A model generated the notes under the pieces. The model did no database searches. It was not told where the DNA came from and was given only the letters and a program-made list of their open reading frames with translations. This document shows, piece by piece, positions 6,549 through 13,525 of a stretch of DNA of 13,748 nucleotides. Origin of the DNA: an uncultured Selenomonadales bacterium (GTDB taxonomy: Bacteria; Bacillota; Negativicutes; Selenomonadales; Selenomonadaceae); NCBI GenBank assembly GCA_937901445.1, contig CALDHY010000037.1, positions 1 through 13,748 on the forward strand, in the 5' to 3' direction. Within the stretch, counting starts at the first letter, position 1; each line of letters starts with the position of its first letter. Both the position numbers and the translations under genes were made by a program.

Positions 6549-7442
6549 TTAATTTTCAACCGTTGCAATATCTTCATCTGTTTCAGGCGTTTCAGTTTCA
6601 GTTATTTCTTCAGGTATTATATCTGTATCTGTTTCAGTTAAATTTTTGCCCTGTTCGCTAACTTGAATATCTGCGCTTAAATCCTGCGCGAGGTCCAATT
6701 TTTGAAAACTTTTCTTTTTGGGAAGTCTCATGGCAAAATTGTCGGTTTTGTCAAATTGAACTTCGCCGCTTTTAATTTTAAGCTGTAAAACGTGTCCGCC
6801 CAAAGTTTTATCAACTGAAATAAAATGAAAGTGCCATCCGGGCGTATTTAAGCCGCTCATATAAGGCGGGCAATACAAGCCTACAATCGTGCCGTAAGTG
6901 TTATACAAAGTTTTTTCTTTTTGGTCGACTTCCAACGCCTGTACTAAAGTTTTGTAGGGTTTTTCCTGCGCCTTTTCACTGCGAATTAAAATTTCACTGA
7001 ACATACCGTCAATTTTAACGAAATAAAAACTGTTCGCGCCGTATTTGTCGACAAGCGAATTTAATTTTTCCTCAAGTAAATCTTTGTTTGAAATATTTTT
7101 GAGTTTAACAGAAAAATCTTTCTCAAAAAAAGTTACGTTTGCAAAAGGCACTGTAACTTTATCTTCGACAACATTAATTTTTAAATCTGCACCGGCGCGG
7201 TAAACTACGCCATCCAAAACAATCATTTCGCCGTCCAAGCCGTCAAAAGTTCCAAGTCCAATATCGCCCAAAGTTTTCAATTCTTCAACAGTAATGCTGC
7301 CGTCAAAGTGTCCGAGCGTCAAAGATTGTAACAACGCAACTTGATTATTTGTTTCACGTTCGACGGGTTCAGCCGCGTTTGCCGTACTAAATAAAATTGC
7401 GCCGGTTAATGCTGTAATTCCAAAAATTTTTTTATAATGCAT
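6549..7442 (-). CDS. budA: Exported alpha-acetolactate decarboxylase
   Basis: Converts 2-acetolactate to acetoin and CO2. The product has 297 residues. An N-terminal signal peptide (1-23, cleavage about ANA|AEP) indicates export, unlike cytoplasmic BudA/AlsD but like the secreted Brevibacillus AldB. The family core is complete: FDGSITVEEL (46-55), GLGTFDGLDGEM with Glu72, PFANVTFF (99-106), Arg154 in ILIRSEKAQEKPY, zinc ligands His204, His206 (PGWHFHF) and His217 (GGHV), and a C-terminal Glu263 in the place expected for the active-site glutamate. A 30-residue Thr/Glu/Asp-rich tail (268-297) extends past the family end. ATG at 7442 is preceded at 7 nt by AGGGG, which belongs to a heptad array. 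It sits between gatC and gatA, where no such gene is expected, and looks like an insertion into the operon. Confidence 0.9.
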   Translation of the reverse strand: MHYKKIFGITALTGAILFSTANAAEPVERETNNQVALLQSLTLGHFDGSITVEELKTLGDIGLGTFDGLDGEMIVLDGVVYRAGADLKINVVEDKVTVPFANVTFFEKDFSVKLKNISNKDLLEEKLNSLVDKYGANSFYFVKIDGMFSEILIRSEKAQEKPYKTLVQALEVDQKEKTLYNTYGTIVGLYCPPYMSGLNTPGWHFHFISVDKTLGGHVLQLKIKSGEVQFDKTDNFAMRLPKKKSFQKLDLAQDLSADIQVSEQGKNLTETDTDIIPEEITETETPETDEDIATVEN

Positions 7443-7448
7443 TTCAAT

Positions 7449-7483
7449 TCCCCTAGTCCTTATTCCTTAACCCCTAGTCCTTA
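7449..7483 (-). repeat. Heptad array A (five units) between gatC and budA
   Basis: Read on the minus strand: TAAGGAC, TAGGGGT, TAAGGAA, TAAGGAC, TAGGGGA, five units in exact 7-nt register. It begins 2 nt after the gatC stop codon and fills the gap to budA. The last unit supplies the budA ribosome binding site. No promoter is visible inside it. Confidence 0.85.
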
Positions 7484-7485
7484 AA

Positions 7486-7776
7486 TTATTCCTCCAGCAC
7501 GCGCGGAACTTTAAAATAGCCGTCCTCTTTCAAAGGCGCGTTAGAAAGTGCAAGTTCCCTGTCAATCGAAGGTTTAACTTTATCTTCACGAAAAACATTT
7601 TGCATAGGCAGCGCGTAGGTTGTCGGTTCAATGTTGGTTGTGTCGATTGAATTTAAATTTTCAATGTAGGTTAAAATTTCGTTGAGTTGTCCAAGAATTT
7701 TTGCAGATTCATCCGGGCGAATTTTGAGCCGCGACAAACTTGCAACATTCTGAATATCAGTTTCAGTTATTTTCAT
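7486..7776 (-). CDS. gatC: Aspartyl/glutamyl-tRNA amidotransferase subunit C
   Basis: Small subunit of GatCAB that wraps around GatA and stabilises its contact with GatB; cytoplasmic. The 96-residue length is normal. Recognised by the N-terminal helix pattern D-I-x2-V-A-x-L-S-R-L-K-I, the central L-N-x-I-L-x-Y-I-x-x-L segment, the D-T-T-N-I-E-P-T linker that threads along GatA, the FREDKV motif and the ending F-K-V-P-R-V-L-E. ATG at 7776 follows a strong AAGGAGG at 7 nt. It opens the operon gatC-budA-gatA-cyclo-ligase behind the terminator of the upstream gene and a possible extended -10 promoter. The 3' end carries GGAGGA, an incidental ribosome-binding-like sequence. Confidence 0.95.
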   Translation of the reverse strand: MKITETDIQNVASLSRLKIRPDESAKILGQLNEILTYIENLNSIDTTNIEPTTYALPMQNVFREDKVKPSIDRELALSNAPLKEDGYFKVPRVLEE

Positions 7777-7806
7777 AAAAAATCCTCCTTAAAAATTGCC
7801 GCGCAA

Positions 7807-7815
7807 ATTTTACCA
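7807..7815 (-). promoter_or_regulatory. Possible gatC promoter, extended -10
   Basis: On the minus strand TGG-TAAAAT forms an extended -10 with one deviation from TATAAT, about 30 nt before the gatC start and just after the upstream terminator. There is no credible -35. Its position makes a promoter likely; the exact site is tentative. Confidence 0.4.
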
Positions 7816-7825
7816 CAATTACCGC

Positions 7826-7851
7826 AAAAAAAATAGCGGGAAATTCCCCGC
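7826..7851 (-). terminator. Intrinsic terminator of the rnhB/FliK-like unit
   Basis: On the minus strand the GC-rich stem GCGGG/CCCGC (7847-7851 with 7836-7840, extendable by a G-T pair) is followed by TA and eight T. It lies 10 nt past the stop of the glutamine-rich gene and separates that unit from gatC. Confidence 0.85.
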
Positions 7852-7861
7852 CTTGAAAATT

Positions 7862-10117
7862 TTATGAGGCAAGCATTCTTTCGCCAATGCTGCCAATTCT
7901 TATTTCGCCAAGATTAAAGTTTGTACCGCGAATTGAATCGCGCAGGTTTGAAACATACGCGCGGAAATCTTCAGCGGCTTCAATTTCAGAAAAGTAAAAG
8001 CGCATATCAAGTTGGTTGCCTTCGTAGACGCGGAAAATTAATTCAGCCGCGCCGATATTGTCAGTAAGCACGCAAATTCTAAGCCACGTTTCTTTTTTCT
8101 CAACGCCGGTTTCAGGGTCTTTTGCGTTTTCGTCGTAGACGCTTAAATAAGTCGGATAACTTGTAGCATTTTCGCCCAGATACAGCGGCAACATCATTTG
8201 AAAAGAGCGTTGGTTTTGAACGGTTGAATTGTCGCTGCTTGTAAAATTTCTCATAATGTTTGCAAAGTCAGAAACGTCACGACCGGCGCGCTTGAAGGCG
8301 CGGGGCGTCATTTTTGAAGTTAAATTCGCCATATCGCAAAGTTGCATAAAAGCCCAGAGGCGCGGCAAGTCGGGCAATTTGTGTTGGACGGCGGCTTGTT
8401 GCACGGTTGAAGGTACATTTTGTTGACAAAGGCGCAGTAAATTTTGTAAGTGGCGCGCTTCAGCTTCCGGCATCATTTTTTGAGAATTATTTACAAAGTT
8501 TTGAAGGAGTGCGGCGTCACGCGGCGTCATTGTTTGAGAATTTTTCATTAAAAACTGCGCGAGGCTTTTCATTGTATCCATAGTTTGCGGCGTATTTTGC
8601 AGCGGTTGTTTCAGTAAAAGCGTTTTGGCTTCCTGCATTTGATTTTTAAGTTCCTGCTGTTTCGACAAGAAATTTTCATTCGGTACAGGCGTTGCTTCAC
8701 GCAAAAAATTGGACGCTTGATTTTGTTGTTGAAGATTTTGAGGCTGATTTTGTTGCTGGAGATTTTGAGGCTGATTTTGTTGTTGGAGATTTTGTGGCTG
8801 ATTCTGTTGTTGGAGATTTTGTGGCTGATTCTGTTGCTGAAGATTTTGAGATTGATTCTGTTGCTGAAGATTTTGTGGCTGATTCTGTTGTTGGAGATTT
8901 TGAGGCTGATTCTGTTGCTGAAGATTTTGAGGCTGATTTTGTTGTTGAAGATTTTGAGGCTGATTCTGTTGCTGAAGATTTTGAGGCTGATTCTGTTGCT
9001 GGAGATTTTGAGGCTGATTCTGTTGCTGGAGATTTTGAGGCTGATTCTGTTGTTGAAGATTTTGAGGTTGATTCTGTTGCTGGAGATTTTGAGGCTGATT
9101 CTGTTGTTGGAGATTTTGAGGCTGATTTTGAGATTGATTCTGCTGTTGGAGATTTTGGGGCTGATTTTGAGATTGATTCTGCTGTTGGAGATTTTGAGGC
9201 TGATTTTGAGATTGATTCTGCTGTTGAAGATTTTGAGGCTGATTCTGTTGTTGAGTTGGAGAATTTGGCGTTTGTTGGAAATATTGAGGCGTTCGATTTT
9301 GGGCGGCTTGTTGTTTAGGGAGATTAGCGTAGGGGTCGTCAAGTTGCCGGTACATAGAATTTAAAAGGCGTTGAGTCGGCGTAGGGGTCGGGCGTTGTTG
9401 AGTTTGCTGTTGAGTTTGTTGCTGATTTTGAGTTTGTGCAGATGAAGTATCGGTATTTGGGCGCGGCATAAAAAATTTAATCAGCTGATTTAAAAATTGC
9501 ATACCTTCAGATTGTTGAGGCTGATTTAATGTGGCAGAAGTTGCCATTGTTTGTGAAAGTTGCGCCAAAATTTCATACAGTGCTTGCGGCAGTTGGTCGG
9601 GGTTTTTACTGTCGATAAGTTCAAAGGCGGATTTTGACATTAAAACGGGTTCCAAAAAATTCCCGCCGTTTTCAGATACAACTAAATTTTTGAACTGCGA
9701 AAGTAAAGTTTTAGTTTCGTCGCTCAATTCCATTGAAAAACCTTTTTCTGCAAGCGCGCCAATTTGTGAAAGCATCCTTGCTAAAATCATCAGTTGATCA
9801 TTAGAAAAGCGTTGACTTTCAATCGTACTGCCTATTCCCTGCGCGAGGGTTGCATTTACTGAAAAGGCTTGTTGCAAAATATTTCGTACAACCTGCCCAA
9901 TATCAGACGGCAATTTTTCAAAGCCAAATTTTTCTTGCGCGGCGATTTTTGACAAAGTACCTGCCAAATCTTCAATGGCAGTTTGCAAAGTTACGTTAGT
10001 TTGTGGTCGAAAACCATCTATAAGAGTATCGCCGCGTCGCTGTATACCTTCAGTTTCGCCCGTCGGTCTTTGCGGGGCTACCGGCTGAATTCCTATCGCT
10101 CCTGCGTTTATTGGCAT
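7862..10117 (-). CDS. Glutamine-rich FliK-like protein (possible YlqG counterpart)
   Basis: 751 residues, no signal peptide or membrane segment. Residues 1-205 form a mainly helical region. Residues 205-293 are Gln/Thr/Pro-rich. About 294-467 is a repeat tract of 18 units of N-Q-P-Q-N-L-Q-Q-Q or a 13-residue variant. Residues 468-751 resume ordinary composition and end in a domain reminiscent of the FliK C-terminal fold (alternating strands with LPLYLG, AAELIFRVYEGNQLDMRFYF, a helix, then LGEIRIG). ATG at 10117 follows AGGAG at 8 nt. It lies 37 nt after rnhB, so they form one unit. In Bacillus subtilis, as I recall, ylqG follows rnhB and precedes an FlhB-like gene, so positional orthology is plausible. 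Here no FlhB-like gene follows. Function unknown; a length-gauge or secretion-related role is speculative. Confidence 0.8.
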   Translation of the reverse strand: MPINAGAIGIQPVAPQRPTGETEGIQRRGDTLIDGFRPQTNVTLQTAIEDLAGTLSKIAAQEKFGFEKLPSDIGQVVRNILQQAFSVNATLAQGIGSTIESQRFSNDQLMILARMLSQIGALAEKGFSMELSDETKTLLSQFKNLVVSENGGNFLEPVLMSKSAFELIDSKNPDQLPQALYEILAQLSQTMATSATLNQPQQSEGMQFLNQLIKFFMPRPNTDTSSAQTQNQQQTQQQTQQRPTPTPTQRLLNSMYRQLDDPYANLPKQQAAQNRTPQYFQQTPNSPTQQQNQPQNLQQQNQSQNQPQNLQQQNQSQNQPQNLQQQNQSQNQPQNLQQQNQPQNLQQQNQPQNLQQQNQPQNLQQQNQPQNLQQQNQPQNLQQQNQPQNLQQQNQPQNLQQQNQPQNLQQQNQPQNLQQQNQSQNLQQQNQPQNLQQQNQPQNLQQQNQPQNLQQQNQPQNLQQQNQASNFLREATPVPNENFLSKQQELKNQMQEAKTLLLKQPLQNTPQTMDTMKSLAQFLMKNSQTMTPRDAALLQNFVNNSQKMMPEAEARHLQNLLRLCQQNVPSTVQQAAVQHKLPDLPRLWAFMQLCDMANLTSKMTPRAFKRAGRDVSDFANIMRNFTSSDNSTVQNQRSFQMMLPLYLGENATSYPTYLSVYDENAKDPETGVEKKETWLRICVLTDNIGAAELIFRVYEGNQLDMRFYFSEIEAAEDFRAYVSNLRDSIRGTNFNLGEIRIGSIGERMLAS
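8718..9239 (-). repeat. 27-nt tandem coding repeat, 18 units
   Basis: Fifteen 27-nt units and three 39-nt units (15, 16 and 17 counted from the left) in tandem, encoding N-Q-P-Q-N-L-Q-Q-Q, or N-Q-S-Q plus that unit. Every length is a multiple of three, so all frames stay open and long spurious reading frames appear on both strands. Differences between units are almost all synonymous (CAA/CAG, CTT/CTC, CCT/CCA). The clear amino-acid change among the 27-nt units is Pro to Ser in unit 5. Confidence 0.95.
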
Positions 10118-10154
10118 TTTCTCAACTCCTTTTTTATTGAAATATTTTTTTTAT

Positions 10155-10832
10155 TTAAAACAATGACGGCTGAAATTTTTGTCGAATCATACCTTTTACC
10201 GGCTCGAAAGTTTTTCTGTGAATTGGCGTAAATCCTATTTTTTCAATCGCCGCCAAATGTTCCCGCGTGCCGTAACCGGAATTTTTTTCAAAGCCGTATC
10301 CCGGAAAATCTTTGCCCCAATCCTGCGCCAATCTGTCACGAGTAACTTTAGCGATTATCGACGCGGCGGCAATGCTTGCAGAAAGTGAATCGCCGTGAAT
10401 CAGCGCGCGGCTTTTAATTTTATTGTTGAATTGCGGTCTCATTGCGTCCGTCAAAACAAAATCCGGCTGAATCGTCAAACAGTTCACGGCTCTAATCATT
10501 CCCTGCAAAGTTGCCTGATAAACATTCAAAGTATCAATTTCGTCAGCACTTACAGCGACGCTTGCAACGCTTACGGCATTTGAAATAATTTCGTCATAAA
10601 GTTTTTCACGAATTTTGGGCGAAAGTTTTTTTGAATCGTTGAGTTTTTCAAGATATAAATTCGGCGGCAAGATAACCGCGCCGACTATAACCGGTCCGAT
10701 AAGTGAACCGCGCCCTGCCTCGTCAACGCCTGCAATGAATTTGTAGCCTTCATCCAGCGCATCATTTTCAAATTTGTAAAGTTTTGCAACGCGGGCTTTA
10801 TCTTCATCAAGATTTAACTTTTTTATCGTCAT
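10155..10832 (-). CDS. rnhB: Ribonuclease HII
   Basis: Cleaves the RNA strand of RNA-DNA hybrids and initiates removal of ribonucleotides misincorporated in DNA; cytoplasmic. The product has 225 residues. The four acidic catalytic residues are present: Asp37 and Glu38 in GVDEAGRG, Asp129 in LTDAMRP and Asp148 in IHGDSLSAS. Other family signatures are LNDSKKLS, SIAAASIIAKVTRDRL and GYGTREHLAAI...TPIHRKTFEPV. ATG at 10832 is favoured because GCGGTG lies 5 nt upstream. The ATG at 10847 (five residues longer) has no ribosome binding site, but cannot be excluded. It is the first gene of a two-gene unit with the glutamine-rich protein and is transcribed divergently from argS. Confidence 0.95.
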   Translation of the reverse strand: MTIKKLNLDEDKARVAKLYKFENDALDEGYKFIAGVDEAGRGSLIGPVIVGAVILPPNLYLEKLNDSKKLSPKIREKLYDEIISNAVSVASVAVSADEIDTLNVYQATLQGMIRAVNCLTIQPDFVLTDAMRPQFNNKIKSRALIHGDSLSASIAAASIIAKVTRDRLAQDWGKDFPGYGFEKNSGYGTREHLAAIEKIGFTPIHRKTFEPVKGMIRQKFQPSLF

Positions 10833-10860
10833 TTCAACACCGCTCATTCAATTTTTTTAA

Positions 10861-10869
10861 ATTATACCA
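10861..10869 (-). promoter_or_regulatory. rnhB promoter, extended -10
   Basis: On the minus strand TGG-TATAAT, a perfect -10 with the TGn extension, 28 nt before the rnhB start. The -35 region falls at the edge of heptad array B and shows no match to TTGACA. Confidence 0.6.
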
Positions 10870-10884
10870 TAATCTGTAAAAAAA

Positions 10885-10919
10885 ATCCCTAATCCTTAGC
10901 TCCTATTCCCTATCCCCTA
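10885..10919 (-). repeat. Heptad array B (five units) between divergent rnhB and argS promoters
   Basis: On the minus strand: TAGGGGA, TAGGGAA, TAGGAGC, TAAGGAT, TAGGGAT, in exact 7-nt register. It lies between the -10 of rnhB (10861) and the -35 of argS (10923). Unlike arrays A, C and D it does not follow a stop codon. The third unit, TAGGAGC, is the least regular. Confidence 0.8.
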
Positions 10920-10922
10920 ATT

Positions 10923-10951
10923 TTGACATTGCGGCGGCGTCATTGTATAAT
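10923..10951 (+). promoter_or_regulatory. argS promoter, perfect sigma-A consensus
   Basis: TTGACA (10923-10928), 17-nt spacer, TATAAT (10946-10951): both hexamers and the spacing match consensus exactly. Transcription should begin near 10958, giving a leader of about 84 nt. Confidence 0.85.
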
Positions 10952-10979
10952 TGCCAAAAAATATTTACGAAATTTATTG

Positions 10980-10999
10980 CGCCGTCAACTTAGGCGGCG
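10980..10999 (+). other. Hairpin in the argS leader
   Basis: CGCCG (10980-10984) can pair with CGGCG (10995-10999) around a 10-nt loop. No T-run follows and the T-box motif (AGGGTGGNACCGCG) is absent, so it is neither a terminator nor a T-box. A small structural role in the leader is possible. Confidence 0.35.
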
Positions 11000-11041
11000 T
11001 GTTTAGCGTAAAGGAAAAAATTTTCTACAGGAGGAAAAATT

Positions 11042-12700
11042 TTGGACGTAAAAATTAAAATTATCGACGCGGTAAATTCTGCAGTTGACGCGGCAATTTC
11101 TGCCGGAATTTTTAAGACTGCCGATAACTTGCCGGAAATTTCTTTGGAAGTGCCGCCTAAAAAAGAGTTCGGCGATTTTTCAACAAACTTTGCCATGCAG
11201 TCGGCGAAAATTTTTCATATGAATCCAAAAAAAATTGCCGAAGAAATTAAAACTCGAATTGCGGCAGATTGGCTTGAAAAAATCGAAATTGCGGGCGCGG
11301 GCTTTATGAATTTTTATCTTAAGCCGGACGTGATTTACCTTGAACTGAAAAATATTTATGACAACTTGGAAAATTTTGGGCAACTTCCCAACAAAAAAAA
11401 TGTTCCAATTCAAATTGAGTACGTCAGCGCAAATCCGACGGGACTTTTGCACGTGGGACACGGGCGCGGCGCGGCGGCGGGCTCTGCCATTGTAAATATT
11501 TTGCGCGCGGCAGGTTACAACGTCGAAAGTGAATATTATATCAATGACGCCGGCAACCAAATGGAAAATCTTGCAAAGTCTGTAAACGCACGCTACCTTC
11601 AACATTTCGGCGTAGAAATTGAATTTCCCGAAAACGGCTATCACGGCGCAGATATTCTTGACACAACCAAAAGAATTATCGAACGCGACGGCGATAAATA
11701 TTTGAACTTGCCGGAAAGTGAACGCCTCAAAATTCTTGAAAATCTTGCTTATGCTGATAAACTCGACGAACTCAAAAAAGATTTAAAAAATTTCAAAGTT
11801 GAATTTGACGTTTGGTTCAGTGAACGAACTTTACACCCCGATAAAATTAATGACGCCGTAAAAGTCCTGCGCGAGCGCGGCGAAATTTACGAAAAGGACG
11901 GAGCGTTATGGTTAAATTCCACGAAATACGGCGACGACAAAGACCGCGTTGTAGTTCGTGAAAACGGTGTACCAACTTATTTGGCGGCTGATATTGCCTA
12001 CCACAAAAATAAATTTGAACGCGGCTTTTCCACTTTGATAAATCTTTGGGGCGCGGATCATCACGGTTATATTTGCAGGGTTAAGGCGGCTATGAGTGCG
12101 CTTGGTTTTAACGCCGATAATCTGAAAATTTTATTGTTGCAAATGGTTTCACTGTATCGCGGCGGCGAACTTGTCAAAATGTCGAAACGTACCGGAGAAA
12201 GTATAACCCTGCGCGAGCTTATGGAAGAAGTTGGAACGGACGCGGCAAGATATTTTTTCTTAATGCGCTCGATTGACAGTCAACTTGATTTTGATTTAGA
12301 CCTTGCGAAAAAACAAAGTAGCGAAAATCCCGTGTACTATATTCAATACGCGCACGCCAGAATTTGCAGTATTTTTAGGCAGGCTGATGAAGTTGGCTTG
12401 AAACTTGTTGACGCGCCGAAATTTTCAATGATGACTACTGCCGCCGAAATTGATTTAATCAACAAAATTTTTGAATATCCCGCCGAAATTGAACGCGCCG
12501 CCGCCGATTTTGCGCCACAAAGAATCGCCCGCTATGCTTACGATTTAGCCGCGCAATTTCACAGCTTTTATCGTGACTGCAGAATTTTGGGCGTTGACAA
12601 CGAACTCGCGCAGGCGCGCCTTGCACTTGTAAAAATCACGGCTCATACAATCAAACACGCGCTGAATTTATTGGGCGTTTCTGCCCCAACTTCAATGTAA
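11042..12700 (+). CDS. argS: Arginyl-tRNA synthetase
   Basis: Class I synthetase that charges tRNA-Arg with arginine using ATP; cytoplasmic, essential. The 552 residues are full length. Domains: N-terminal tRNA-binding Add-1 domain (about 1-95); catalytic Rossmann domain with YVSANPTG, the HIGH-type motif HVGH (137-140) followed by GRGAA, and the KMSKR loop (379-383); DALR anticodon-binding domain from about 430, ending LLGVSAPTSM (compare the common APERM). The start is TTG at 11042, 7 nt after a perfect AGGAGG (11029-11034), and the N-terminus fits the family. It is transcribed from a perfect consensus promoter, divergent from rnhB. Its stop codon TAA forms the first three bases of heptad array C. 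Confidence 0.97.
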   Translation: MDVKIKIIDAVNSAVDAAISAGIFKTADNLPEISLEVPPKKEFGDFSTNFAMQSAKIFHMNPKKIAEEIKTRIAADWLEKIEIAGAGFMNFYLKPDVIYLELKNIYDNLENFGQLPNKKNVPIQIEYVSANPTGLLHVGHGRGAAAGSAIVNILRAAGYNVESEYYINDAGNQMENLAKSVNARYLQHFGVEIEFPENGYHGADILDTTKRIIERDGDKYLNLPESERLKILENLAYADKLDELKKDLKNFKVEFDVWFSERTLHPDKINDAVKVLRERGEIYEKDGALWLNSTKYGDDKDRVVVRENGVPTYLAADIAYHKNKFERGFSTLINLWGADHHGYICRVKAAMSALGFNADNLKILLLQMVSLYRGGELVKMSKRTGESITLRELMEEVGTDAARYFFLMRSIDSQLDFDLDLAKKQSSENPVYYIQYAHARICSIFRQADEVGLKLVDAPKFSMMTTAAEIDLINKIFEYPAEIERAAADFAPQRIARYAYDLAAQFHSFYRDCRILGVDNELAQARLALVKITAHTIKHALNLLGVSAPTSM

Positions 12701-12732
12701 GGATTAGGGGCTAGGGGCTAAGGATTAGGGAG
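12698..12732 (+). repeat. Heptad array C (five units) between argS and the YkuD-like gene
   Basis: TAAGGAT, TAGGGGC, TAGGGGC, TAAGGAT, TAGGGAG in exact register, followed by TAAAAAA and the start codon at 12740. The first TAA is the argS stop codon. The last unit provides AGGGAG as ribosome binding site for the next gene. Confidence 0.88.
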
Positions 12733-12739
12733 TAAAAAA

Positions 12740-13417
12740 ATGTTGAAAAAATTTTTTTGTTTAATGTTGGTGGTGAGTTTTTTATTGGTTAATAAAGTTT
12801 CAGCCGGAGAATCGCCGCAATGGGTTAAAAATCTTCCTGCCGCCAAAACTGCCACTCAACTTTTAATCGTCGCGCAGGTCGGCGAAAAAACTACCGCGTG
12901 GGTTTCAATGCACGAAAAAATTAACGGCGCGTGGCAACAGATTATGACAACGCCCGGATTTATCGGCAAAAAAGGACTCGGCAAAACTAAGGAGGGCGAT
13001 GCAAAAACGCCCGTTGGAACTTTCCACTTTACAAAGGCGTTCGGAATTGCGCCCAATCCCGGTTGCCGTCTGCCCTATACTCAAGTTGACGAAAATATTT
13101 ATTGGAGCGGCGACGCAAATTACCGCTATAACGAAATGGTAAATATCAAAGATTTTCCCGCGCTTGACATTGAAAACAGTGAACATTTGATTGAAATTTA
13201 TCCGCACTATACCTACGCTTTAAATATCAGCTACAACGAAAACGGCACGCCCGGCAAAGGCTCTGCAATTTTTCTGCACTGCTTAGGCGATAAAAAAACT
13301 TGGACAGACGGCGGTATTGAAATTCCTGAATCTAAAATGCTTTTCGTTATGCAAAATGTAAAGTCTGATTGTGTTGTTGTTATTGATTCGCTGAAAAAAT
13401 TTGGCGGCACTCTTTAA
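12740..13417 (+). CDS. Exported YkuD-like (L,D-transpeptidase fold) protein lacking the catalytic cysteine
   Basis: 225 residues. The signal peptide spans 1-22 (cleavage VSA|GES), so the product acts outside the membrane. The body matches the YkuD-type family in its QLLIVAQVG opening, KTKEGDAKTPVGTFHF (82-97), aromatic SGDANYRYN segment, EHLIEIYPHY and GKGSAIFLHCLG (173-183, with His180). In that family the last motif is T-x-G-C-[VI]; here it reads T-D-G-G-I (189-193), with Gly192 where the catalytic cysteine is expected. One base change (TGT to GGT) would explain it. Cys181 beside His180 is the only nearby thiol. The protein may be an inactive, peptidoglycan-binding homologue or use another residue. 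It lies 39 nt after argS across heptad array C, and array D starts at its stop. The family call is firm; activity is doubtful. Confidence 0.82.
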   Translation: MLKKFFCLMLVVSFLLVNKVSAGESPQWVKNLPAAKTATQLLIVAQVGEKTTAWVSMHEKINGAWQQIMTTPGFIGKKGLGKTKEGDAKTPVGTFHFTKAFGIAPNPGCRLPYTQVDENIYWSGDANYRYNEMVNIKDFPALDIENSEHLIEIYPHYTYALNISYNENGTPGKGSAIFLHCLGDKKTWTDGGIEIPESKMLFVMQNVKSDCVVVIDSLKKFGGTL

Positions 13418-13496
13418 GGGTTAAGGATTAAGGGTTAAGGGTTAAGGGTTAAGGGTTAAAAATCCCTAGTCCTTAATCCTTAGTCCCTAGTCCTTA
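13415..13496. repeat. Heptad array D: six forward units facing five inverted units
   Basis: Forward units at 13415-13456 are TAAGGGT, TAAGGAT and four more TAAGGGT; the first TAA is the stop of the YkuD-like gene. After TAAAA come five units in reverse orientation (13462-13496). Read on the minus strand these are TAAGGAC, TAGGGAC, TAAGGAT, TAAGGAC, TAGGGAT. Aligned unit to unit, the transcript could fold into a stem of about 35 pairs, mostly Watson-Crick and G-U with two A-C mismatches. A-runs, not T-runs, follow it, so it is not a standard intrinsic terminator. Confidence 0.88.
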
Positions 13497-13525
13497 AAAA
13501 AATGACTGAAAGGAAGTTTTTTTAT

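Follow-up and report, generated by a model that had tools for sequence, protein, structure and literature searches.

What are the short G-rich heptanucleotide arrays that lie between the genes of a 13,748-nt contig from an uncultured Selenomonadales bacterium (GenBank assembly GCA_937901445.1, contig CALDHY010000037.1; the whole stretch is here called the window)? The initial annotation described them as four intergenic arrays of a TARGGRN unit. We interpret them as gene-less members of a dispersed-repeat system that is linked to IVP, a small four-helix-bundle protein family (PF05635/TIGR02436), and that works like the repetitive extragenic palindromes (REPs) and their RAYT proteins, an interpretation that we hold to be moderately probable. 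The full form of such an element is best read as a 7- or 8-nt array, an IVP gene, and an array in the opposite orientation. IVP genes and arrays are associated in a recurrent geometry, arrays turn over at reused slots, and their period is bound to lineage. The initial annotation did not include the convergent order of pairs, the anchoring of arrays at stop codons, or their link to IVP.

In-register arrays in the genus

The closest relative of the window is a Selenomonadaceae metagenome-assembled genome (MAG), G001 (locus L067), whose ArgS is 92% identical to that of the window. Its genus, represented by 66 genomes (64 with an argS match), is taken to be that of the window and is referred to below as the genus. 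Arrays were sought by self-matching, with no fixed unit, in 61 of these genomes plus the window (1.67 Mb in total), and one order-2 Markov copy served as the measure of chance. The scan returned 133 period-7, 25 period-8, 14 period-6, 4 period-9, 1 period-11, and 9 period-12 arrays, and the Markov copy one period-4, one period-8, and no period-7 array. A smaller scan of the window and 20 genus loci gave 16 period-7 arrays against 0 in order-2 Markov copies (3 per locus). At the scan threshold only 2 of the window arrays scored, as the rest vary too much or are too short. Of the 62 sampled genomes, 32 had one or more arrays of period 7 or 8, and the other 30 had none within the 6 to 60 kb sampled.

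Among 273 genus arrays, a count that includes those flanking IVP genes and comes from a scan that trims ends and overlooks very short arrays, 10 had 2 units, 21 had 3, 104 had 4, 96 had 5, 19 had 6, and 23 had more. Simple slippage is not expected to give this sharp drop after 4 to 5 units. The assertion that single-direction arrays have exactly five units thus survives as a tendency and not as a fixed number, and the view that they are size constrained, more than products of simple slippage, is borne out by a real in-register family with a cliff after 5 units. Both outcomes named at the outset as telling against that view, i.e., runs no commoner than in shuffled DNA and random unit numbers, were tested and did not occur (close to no arrays in the Markov copies; dominance of 4 to 5 units).

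IVP genes are mostly bracketed by convergent arrays

One orthologous slot holds no array in G007 and G057, a gene-less array pair in G018, and an IVP-bearing pair in G002, the two pairs having the same left edge. The gene between the arms in G002 (G002:C29) matches PF05635 with an E value of 1e-27. PF05635 was matched in 44 of the 66 genus genomes and in none of 14 control genomes. Flanking arrays were examined for 70 of the 77 PF05635 match rows of the genus, at a permissive score of 8 and within flanks of 170 nt (250 nt for loci elsewhere). Arrays lay on both sides of 45 of these loci, upstream only of 12, downstream only of 7, and on neither side of 6; 64 of the 70 therefore had an array on at least one side. 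Where both sides were occupied, the two arrays were convergent at 41 of the 45 loci and of equal period at all 45. For comparison, 1367 other genes of the same sampled regions, two of which (in G002 and G023) themselves hold an IVP gene, were flanked on both sides in 33 cases (9 convergent), on one side in 210, and on neither in 1124. The genus IVP loci are not all independent, because many sit in shared slots and two are identical copies. On an IVP tree of 61 of the 70 loci, from which rows without an array, with a stop, or with fewer than 85 residues were left out, slot mates mostly clustered together. The 8-nt period changed 3 times on this tree, against a mean of 7.7 after shuffling, with 0 of 500 shuffles as low.

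The association also concerned free arrays, i.e., those remaining once IVP-flanking arrays had been removed. With shared ancestry of genomes and slots ignored, 27 genus genomes had both a free array and an IVP, 3 an array only, 13 an IVP only, and 18 neither (Fisher P = 1.1e-4), and all 18 genus genomes with at least 12 arrays per 100 kb have an IVP. The likeness of 156 free arrays (27 genomes) to the IVP arrays of their own genome was 0.408, against 0.167 when genomes were exchanged (standard deviation, 0.040; maximum of 1000 exchanges, 0.334). Across genomes, array likeness correlated with IVP protein identity (Spearman coefficient, 0.244; permuted maximum, 0.106).

At least one PF05635 match was found in each of the window's relatives G001, G031, G034, G040, G041, and G043. 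In G001, G031, G041, G043, and G027, an IVP gene occupies one shared slot together with TAGGGAA-, TAAGGAA-, TAGGGGC-, or TAGGGAC-type arrays. The window units matched the IVP arrays of this slot, the G049 locus included, with a mean of 0.195, against 0.081 elsewhere. Judged by this resemblance, the window likely belongs to the IVP lineage of that slot, though not exclusively.

IVP genes and arrays in other phyla

A pattern modeled on the window matched 45 stretches in genome contigs, which by their titles represent 10 or more phyla (Bacteroidota, Verrucomicrobia, Cyanobacteria, Treponema, Acidobacteria, Planctomycetota, Roseiflexus, Anaerolineaceae, Nitrospiria, Cloacimonadota, Desulfacinum, Clostridia, Oceanisphaera, and one Selenomonadaceae MAG, L067). 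Such arrays are thus not special to Negativicutes. The loci of 44 of these stretches (all except L067; 318 kb) held, beyond the matched arrays, 64 period-7, 5 period-8, 2 period-6, and 6 period-9 arrays, plus 5 of other periods. On viral contigs, a scan with four window-like units returned no stretch, and a general five-unit pattern returned 49; pair order on these contigs was convergent at 2 loci and divergent at none, a comparison of little power. At several Bacteroidales loci (L080, L081, L086, and L092), a motif near TGGCATCCGCC was seen between neighboring heptamer arrays.

The array-bearing set comprised 40 of the 45 loci, in 38 genomes; L067 was left out, as were L074, L075, L086, and L089, whose isolates were already listed. 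PF05635 was matched in 37 of the 38 genomes, over the cut-off in 35. By title, 16 of these genomes belong to Bacteroidota (14 over the cut-off), and the base rate there is itself high, at 153 of 198 genomes in the phylum of G077 (Bacteroidota by title). Among the non-Bacteroidota genomes, 21 of 22 had an IVP over the cut-off, against base rates, not matched group by group, of 71 in 369 Gammaproteobacteria and 32 in 199 genomes of the phylum of G001.

The 30 IVP loci of the array-chosen genomes of other phyla had arrays on both sides in 23 cases, on one side in 6, and on neither in 1; the 23 pairs were all of equal period, 19 being convergent and 2 divergent. Two further groups were not chosen by array; their 58 loci are the top-scoring IVPs from each search and do not represent a random sample. 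Of 29 gammaproteobacterial IVP loci, 18 were flanked on both sides (13 convergently), 9 on one side, and 2 on neither; at score 10, period 7 was found in 24, period 8 in 1, and period 12 in 1, with none in the others. The 29 Bacteroidota loci were flanked on both sides in 8 cases (6 convergent), on one side in 18, and on neither in 3. Three exact GGGAATC units occurred in only one of 369 gammaproteobacterial genomes, G471, which we infer to be a xanthomonad. It carries an IVP match with a broken frame and GGGAATC-type arrays on its flanks, and one gene-less arm in the same genome has the inner edge GGGAATCGTTCAAGC in common with this IVP element. The solved relatives of IVP, XCC0516 (2gsc) and 2rld, were each deposited with five chains; the XCC tag presumably denotes the strain studied by Rehm in 2015. 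The title of one reference describes Xcc0516 of Xanthomonas campestris as an assembly of five four-helix bundles. In a separate observation, the 1.5-Mb gammaproteobacterial genome G429 showed 11 weak PF05635 matches, mostly of equal score, as if multiplied.

Several of these results weigh against the proposed link. The window contains no IVP gene, and its membership in the IVP system for this reason rests on relatives. In the genus, 13 genomes have an IVP without a free array in the 6 to 40 kb sampled, and in 3 with arrays no IVP was found, the MAGs being incomplete; outside it, 1 of the 38 array-bearing genomes lacks an IVP match. Array likeness rises only above approximately 70% IVP identity (0.33 at 70 to 80% and 0.74 above 80%, against 0.06 to 0.12 below), a rise that shared ancestry alone could explain. 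The sixth IVP of the slot used to place the window, that of G049, has AGTTGTC-type units, and the window units are matched equally well or better by some IVP loci elsewhere; because a G013 locus outside this slot gives the best match of all, the lineage assignment is not exclusive. Beyond the genus, the bracketing arrays are divergent at two IVP loci of Prevotellaceae or Muribaculaceae; among gene-less pairs there, 3 of the 10 convergent ones combine a period of 7 with a period of 8, and one further pair is divergent. Bacteroidota IVPs have weaker arrays next to them (at score 10, 10 of 29 loci with period 7, 6 of 29 with period 8, and none with other periods). Finally, the other gene-less arms found in G471 lack the GGGAATCGTTCAAGC inner edge, which is shared by one arm only.

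Convergent pairing and anchoring at stop codons

Arrays were oriented by their excess of G over C, and genes were called with a simple caller of our own. Genus arrays no more than 50 bp apart formed 40 convergent and 0 divergent pairs, with 3 half-scored, 1 tandem, and 1 unscored case, and all 40 convergent pairs were of equal period (33 of 7/7 and 7 of 8/8). The oriented strand contained 4% C, a value that is low partly by definition because orientation was set by G over C. Where the 5′ end of the G-rich strand faced the 3′ end of a gene, it fell between −20 and +12 of the end of the stop codon in 68 of 77 cases; where it faced a gene start, it was 10 to 39 nt distant in 41 of 56. Arrays are placed in this way between the stop codon of one gene and the leader of the following one. 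Of the remaining array ends, 19 were inside called genes, 8 far from genes, and 2 at an edge. Pairs (n = 43) lay mostly between codirectional genes (37), otherwise between convergent genes (3), inside called genes (2), or at an edge (1), and never between divergent genes. For 78 single arrays the corresponding numbers were 52 codirectional, 7 convergent, 4 divergent, 12 inside called genes, and 3 at an edge. Outside the genus, neighboring arrays (44 loci) were convergent in 10 cases, divergent in 1, tandem in 15, and half-scored in 1. A stricter count of TARGGRN arrays over the sampled loci gave 10 convergent and 1 divergent (L087) cases, with 17 and 4 in the two tandem orders; one of the convergent loci (L225) stems from the targeted scan of pair order on viral contigs.

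AATTAGG-type arrays in L253, L281, L235, L238, L373, and L379 have the outer end AGCAATTAG in common across species, with and without an IVP gene; no fixed outer end was noticed in TARGGRN arrays.

Gain, loss, and unit replacement of arrays at reused slots

Statements on orthologous slots rest, for the rnhB-argS and IVP slots, on those among the slots listed. In the rnhB-argS slot, where the window has an array, G031 carries units of the TAGGTGTTAGGG type and G001 TAGGGAN/TAGTGGN units. At the argS-ykuD slot we found 8-mers TAGGGGTA with an inverted partner in G001, TAGTGGN/TAGGGAC units in G034, TTAGGAG units in G066, and a 13- to 16-bp spacer with no array in G011, G035, G040, G041, and G050. 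In the ykuD-HARE slot, G031 has a convergent pair of 8-mers whose right flank resembles that of the window, G042 and G013 have other 7-mer pairs, and G001, G034, G035, G036, G040, and G041 have only 18 to 24 bp and no array. In the gatC-alsD spacer, TARGGRN arrays are absent from all 22 relatives listed; G062 has CGCATTA units there. These comparisons across congeners show that slots are reused, with arrays being gained, lost, and quickly given other unit sequences. The orthologous-spacer comparison proposed in the initial annotation found arrays in some relatives and not in others, and 30 of the 62 sampled genomes had no array in the sample. The premise that TARGGRN defines the family had to be abandoned: congeneric species carry other units, 8-mers included, at the same slots, so that TARGGRN is one local alphabet of a wider repeat class.

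Other insertions were seen at these slots. An acetyltransferase-looking gene (putative name) occupies slots that hold arrays elsewhere, in L139 (argS-ykuD slot, G031) and L132 (ykuD-HARE slot, G028), and a run of nine G near its start could switch the gene on or off. In L129 (14269-14529; argS-ykuD slot, G034), an array-bearing spacer contains nested inverted repeats, possibly an element inserted into an element.

Proposed mechanism and alternative explanations

If IVP, whose two solved relatives consist of five chains, recognizes the array, perhaps with one subunit per unit, both the number of 4 to 5 units and the lineage-bound period would follow. By analogy with what RAYT is thought to do for REPs, IVP may drive or license the growth and spread of arrays. 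Each arm would probably be made separately, from the gene border inward, as an extension of a G-rich 3′ end at a break; such inward growth would make pairs convergent even when the arms differ in sequence. Separate synthesis is suggested by the fact that the convergent rule holds with unlike arms, e.g., TAGGGAC and AATTAGG in G064. Copying from other arrays in the genome would yield the common alphabet. Landing on a stop codon would do little harm, because TAA or TAG at a 7- or 8-nt period gives stops in all frames. On the G-rich strand the enrichment of such all-frame stops was only moderate (98 of 163, against 82.8 permuted; standard deviation, 5.3), and it was stronger on the other strand (48, against 19.1; standard deviation, 3.5). 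The moderate enrichment on the G-rich strand led us to reject a stop-codon island as the sole purpose of the arrays and to keep it as a reason for their tolerance. A much broader proposal seems to us doubtful, although worth stating: IVP and the 7/8-nt arrays would constitute one pan-bacterial family of selfish or domesticated elements, in which a pentamer of IVP would read some five units and guide a telomere-like lengthening of G-rich 3′ ends at intergenic breaks, seeding hundreds of gene-less arrays per genome. The cyanobacterial short tandem repeats (STRRs), the GGGNATC repeats of Xanthomonas, further heptamer repeats of bacteria, and the intervening sequences of 23S rRNA would all be forms of this family.

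The order of events could also be reversed, with 7-nt slippage products gathering in tolerated spacers and IVP being a passenger that inserts preferentially into existing convergent arrays. Gene-less arrays do far outnumber IVP genes (in G001, 30 arrays in 233 kb against 1 IVP found in 2.3 Mb), and in most genomes with many long simple repeats heptamers were reported to be commoner than any other class, with slippage proposed as their source (Mrazek 2007, as related in the portion of PMC4679880 drawn on here). Yet IVP is more often missing from array-free genomes and present in every array-dense one, the period follows the IVP lineage, and neither the 40:0 convergent order nor the cliff at 4 to 5 units is expected from slippage, which in its simple form is thus disfavored; we regard an arrays-first origin as unlikely. 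Telomere-like addition by a reverse transcriptase such as DRT10, with a short RNA as its template, would suit the C-poor strand and the convergent pairs, which resemble fused telomeres. DRT10 itself is described, in the part of PMC12632851 used, as producing tandem-repeat DNA. PF00078 was matched in only 21 of the 66 genus genomes and was absent from 11 of the 18 array-dense ones (G011, G012, G016, G018, G020, G021, G023, G025, G058, G063, and G066), within incomplete MAGs and with a model that may miss unusual enzymes. As far as PF00078 shows, no resident reverse transcriptase is needed, and we consider this route highly improbable.

Convergent pairs might instead be kept for an mRNA stem-loop, as RNA hairpins or terminators. 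The window pair folds as RNA at −39.3 kcal/mol (z = −5.8), pairs favor spacers between codirectional genes, and genus pairs fold somewhat better (−25.9) than with their unit order shuffled (−22.3). With arms taken from other pairs of the same genome, however, folding is nearly the same (−25.2), and the similarity of an arm to its own partner (0.803) is no better than that to arms of other pairs in its genome (0.781), with best arm matches of only 0.40 to 0.71 in 9 of 43 pairs. Hairpins hence arise mainly because arms share an alphabet, not because arms are matched. Moreover, single arrays are equally common, and divergent order, which would fold equally well, does not occur in the genus. Selection for hairpins was rejected on the lack of specific matching, despite the slight advantage over shuffled order, and is in our judgment improbable. 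G-quadruplex formation, as proposed for the Xanthomonas and Nostoc repeats, could draw on the GGG of many units and on the quadruplexes reported in vitro in the consulted part of Rehm 2015 (PMC4692102). In the G-poor families, a G-triplet is missing from units like TAAGAAT, AGCTTTA, GCATTAC, and TAAGGAT, and still the geometry, location, and IVP are the same; these families speak against quadruplexes, the least credible of the explanations weighed here. The IVP-linked system thus remains our preferred interpretation.

Arrays and genes of the window

The arrays and their neighboring genes are listed in Table 1.

Table 1. Arrays of the window and adjacent genes
Feature	Positions	Strand	Basis
Single array, 5 perfect TARGGRN units	7449..7483	-	Direct check of letters
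Single array, 5 units, between divergent rnhB and argS	10885..10919	-	Direct check of letters
Single array, 5 perfect TARGGRN units	12698..12732	+	Direct check of letters
Left arm of convergent pair, 6 TARGGRN units	13415..13456	+	Direct check of letters
Right arm of convergent pair, 5 perfect TARGGRN units	13462..13496	-	Direct check of letters
alsD-like (PF03306)	6549..7442	-	Pfam search
gatC (PF02686)	7486..7776	-	Pfam search
rnhB (PF01351)	10155..10847	-	Pfam search
argS, anchor gene for orthology	11042..12700	+	Match to single-copy gene in 64/66 genomes
YkuD L,D-transpeptidase-like gene (ykuD)	12740..13417	+	Pfam search

The four blocks of in-register TARGGRN units exist where they had been placed, with the qualification that the middle unit of the array at 10885, TAGGAGC, departs from the consensus. 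The last block (13415-13496), first described as one array, does consist of repeats, arranged as a convergent pair of 6 and 5 units. Likewise, the statement that no array lies in a gene holds for most of their length: the arrays at 12698 and 13415 touch genes, their first TAA being the stop codon of argS and ykuD, respectively. The G-rich strand of the array at 7449 comes after the gatC stop codon (7486-7488), and the last unit of the array at 12698, TAGGGAG, sits at the expected position of a putative ykuD Shine-Dalgarno site. The Pfam genes of the window are relA/spoT, alsD-like, gatC, rnhB, ykuD-like, and HARE-HTH; the gene taken to be argS is named by its match to a single-copy gene of the genus.

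A leader motif near CGACTGAAAGGAG with a Shine-Dalgarno site directly adjoins many convergent pairs in several species (window 13497-13525, L206, L210, L215, L223, L245, L228, and L284); this translation leader may mark array landing sites. Elsewhere in the window, a Q/P/N-rich repeat with a 27-nt (9-aa) period (8718-9254) lies within a 751-aa gene (7862-10117), with long open frames in the other frames and on the other strand.

Comparison with known systems

Heptamer arrays in bacterial genomes have been noticed for decades. The STRRs of cyanobacteria are intergenic heptamer arrays, patchy between relatives, mostly of one fixed unit, and often placed before start codons. The parallel originally drawn with known heptamer repeats stands, the window family being comparable to published ones. 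The TAACTGA repeats of Beggiatoaceae, Cyanobacteria, and Bacteroidetes share with it the intergenic heptamer arrays and the patchy distribution among relatives but differ in being mostly of one fixed unit, often before start codons, and without an IVP link in the part of that report drawn on (PMC4679880). Closer are the GGGNATC repeats of Xanthomonas and Nostoc, which, as far as the consulted text of Rehm 2015 (PMC4692102) goes, also have 7-nt G-rich units in a preferred number (4 in that case), occur singly or as convergent pairs, overlap stop codons with the coding strand, precede genes on the other strand, and are rare between divergent genes. They differ in their units, in being read as quadruplexes, and in that no protein partner is named in that text. 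In G471, a unit of this published type (GGGAATC) lies on both flanks of an IVP frame. Tandem 7-nt units, mostly intergenic and single or convergent, are thus found in both families; a G-triplet in each unit is not found in ours, since the window units TAAGGAY have only two consecutive G and units of other families have fewer.

In REP/RAYT systems, a protein gene is bracketed by the repeat, and many gene-less copies are dispersed through the genome, with inverted pairs. RAYT belongs to the Y1 nucleases, and REPs, unlike the IVP arrays, are palindromic; IVP was unrelated to RAYT in the searches run, none of which was aimed at Y1 (PF01797). Avd, the accessory protein of diversity-generating retroelements, works with a reverse transcriptase. 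It is given as an IVP relative in the part of PMC10053308 used, and the NCBIfam Avd model stayed below its cut-off for the G001 IVP. According to the portion of PMC4990558 consulted, 23S rRNA intervening sequences with S23p/IVP are small elements with terminal inverted repeats around the IVP gene, and in that of Coxiella the IVP start codon is immediately preceded by heptamers in tandem, two or three depending on the strain, together with a degenerate copy. These elements lie within 23S rRNA, from which RNase III excises them (PMC4990558), whereas the arrays described here lie in protein-gene spacers and have many gene-less relatives. Insertion into 23S rRNA was not encountered: the window arrays lie between protein genes, and, among 30 IVP flanks on which no rRNA search was run, those inspected by eye were coding.

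The IVP family is called functionally uncharacterized in the section of PMC11270868 used. Open-access literature searches returned no paper joining heptamer arrays and IVP generally, which is not proof of absence. Heptamer repeats, the IVP family, and heptamers beside the IVP gene of Coxiella were already known; joined generally, two orphan observations (heptamer arrays and the IVP family) become one testable system. If IVP drives the arrays, short DNA would have a new route of spreading through genomes without a recognized transposase, gene ends and spacers would be reshaped species by species, and there would be a bearing on the origin of 23S rRNA intervening sequences. Collectively, set beside REP/RAYT, the published heptamer repeats, and the 23S rRNA intervening sequences, heptamer arrays with IVP point to an overlooked type of dispersed genetic element.

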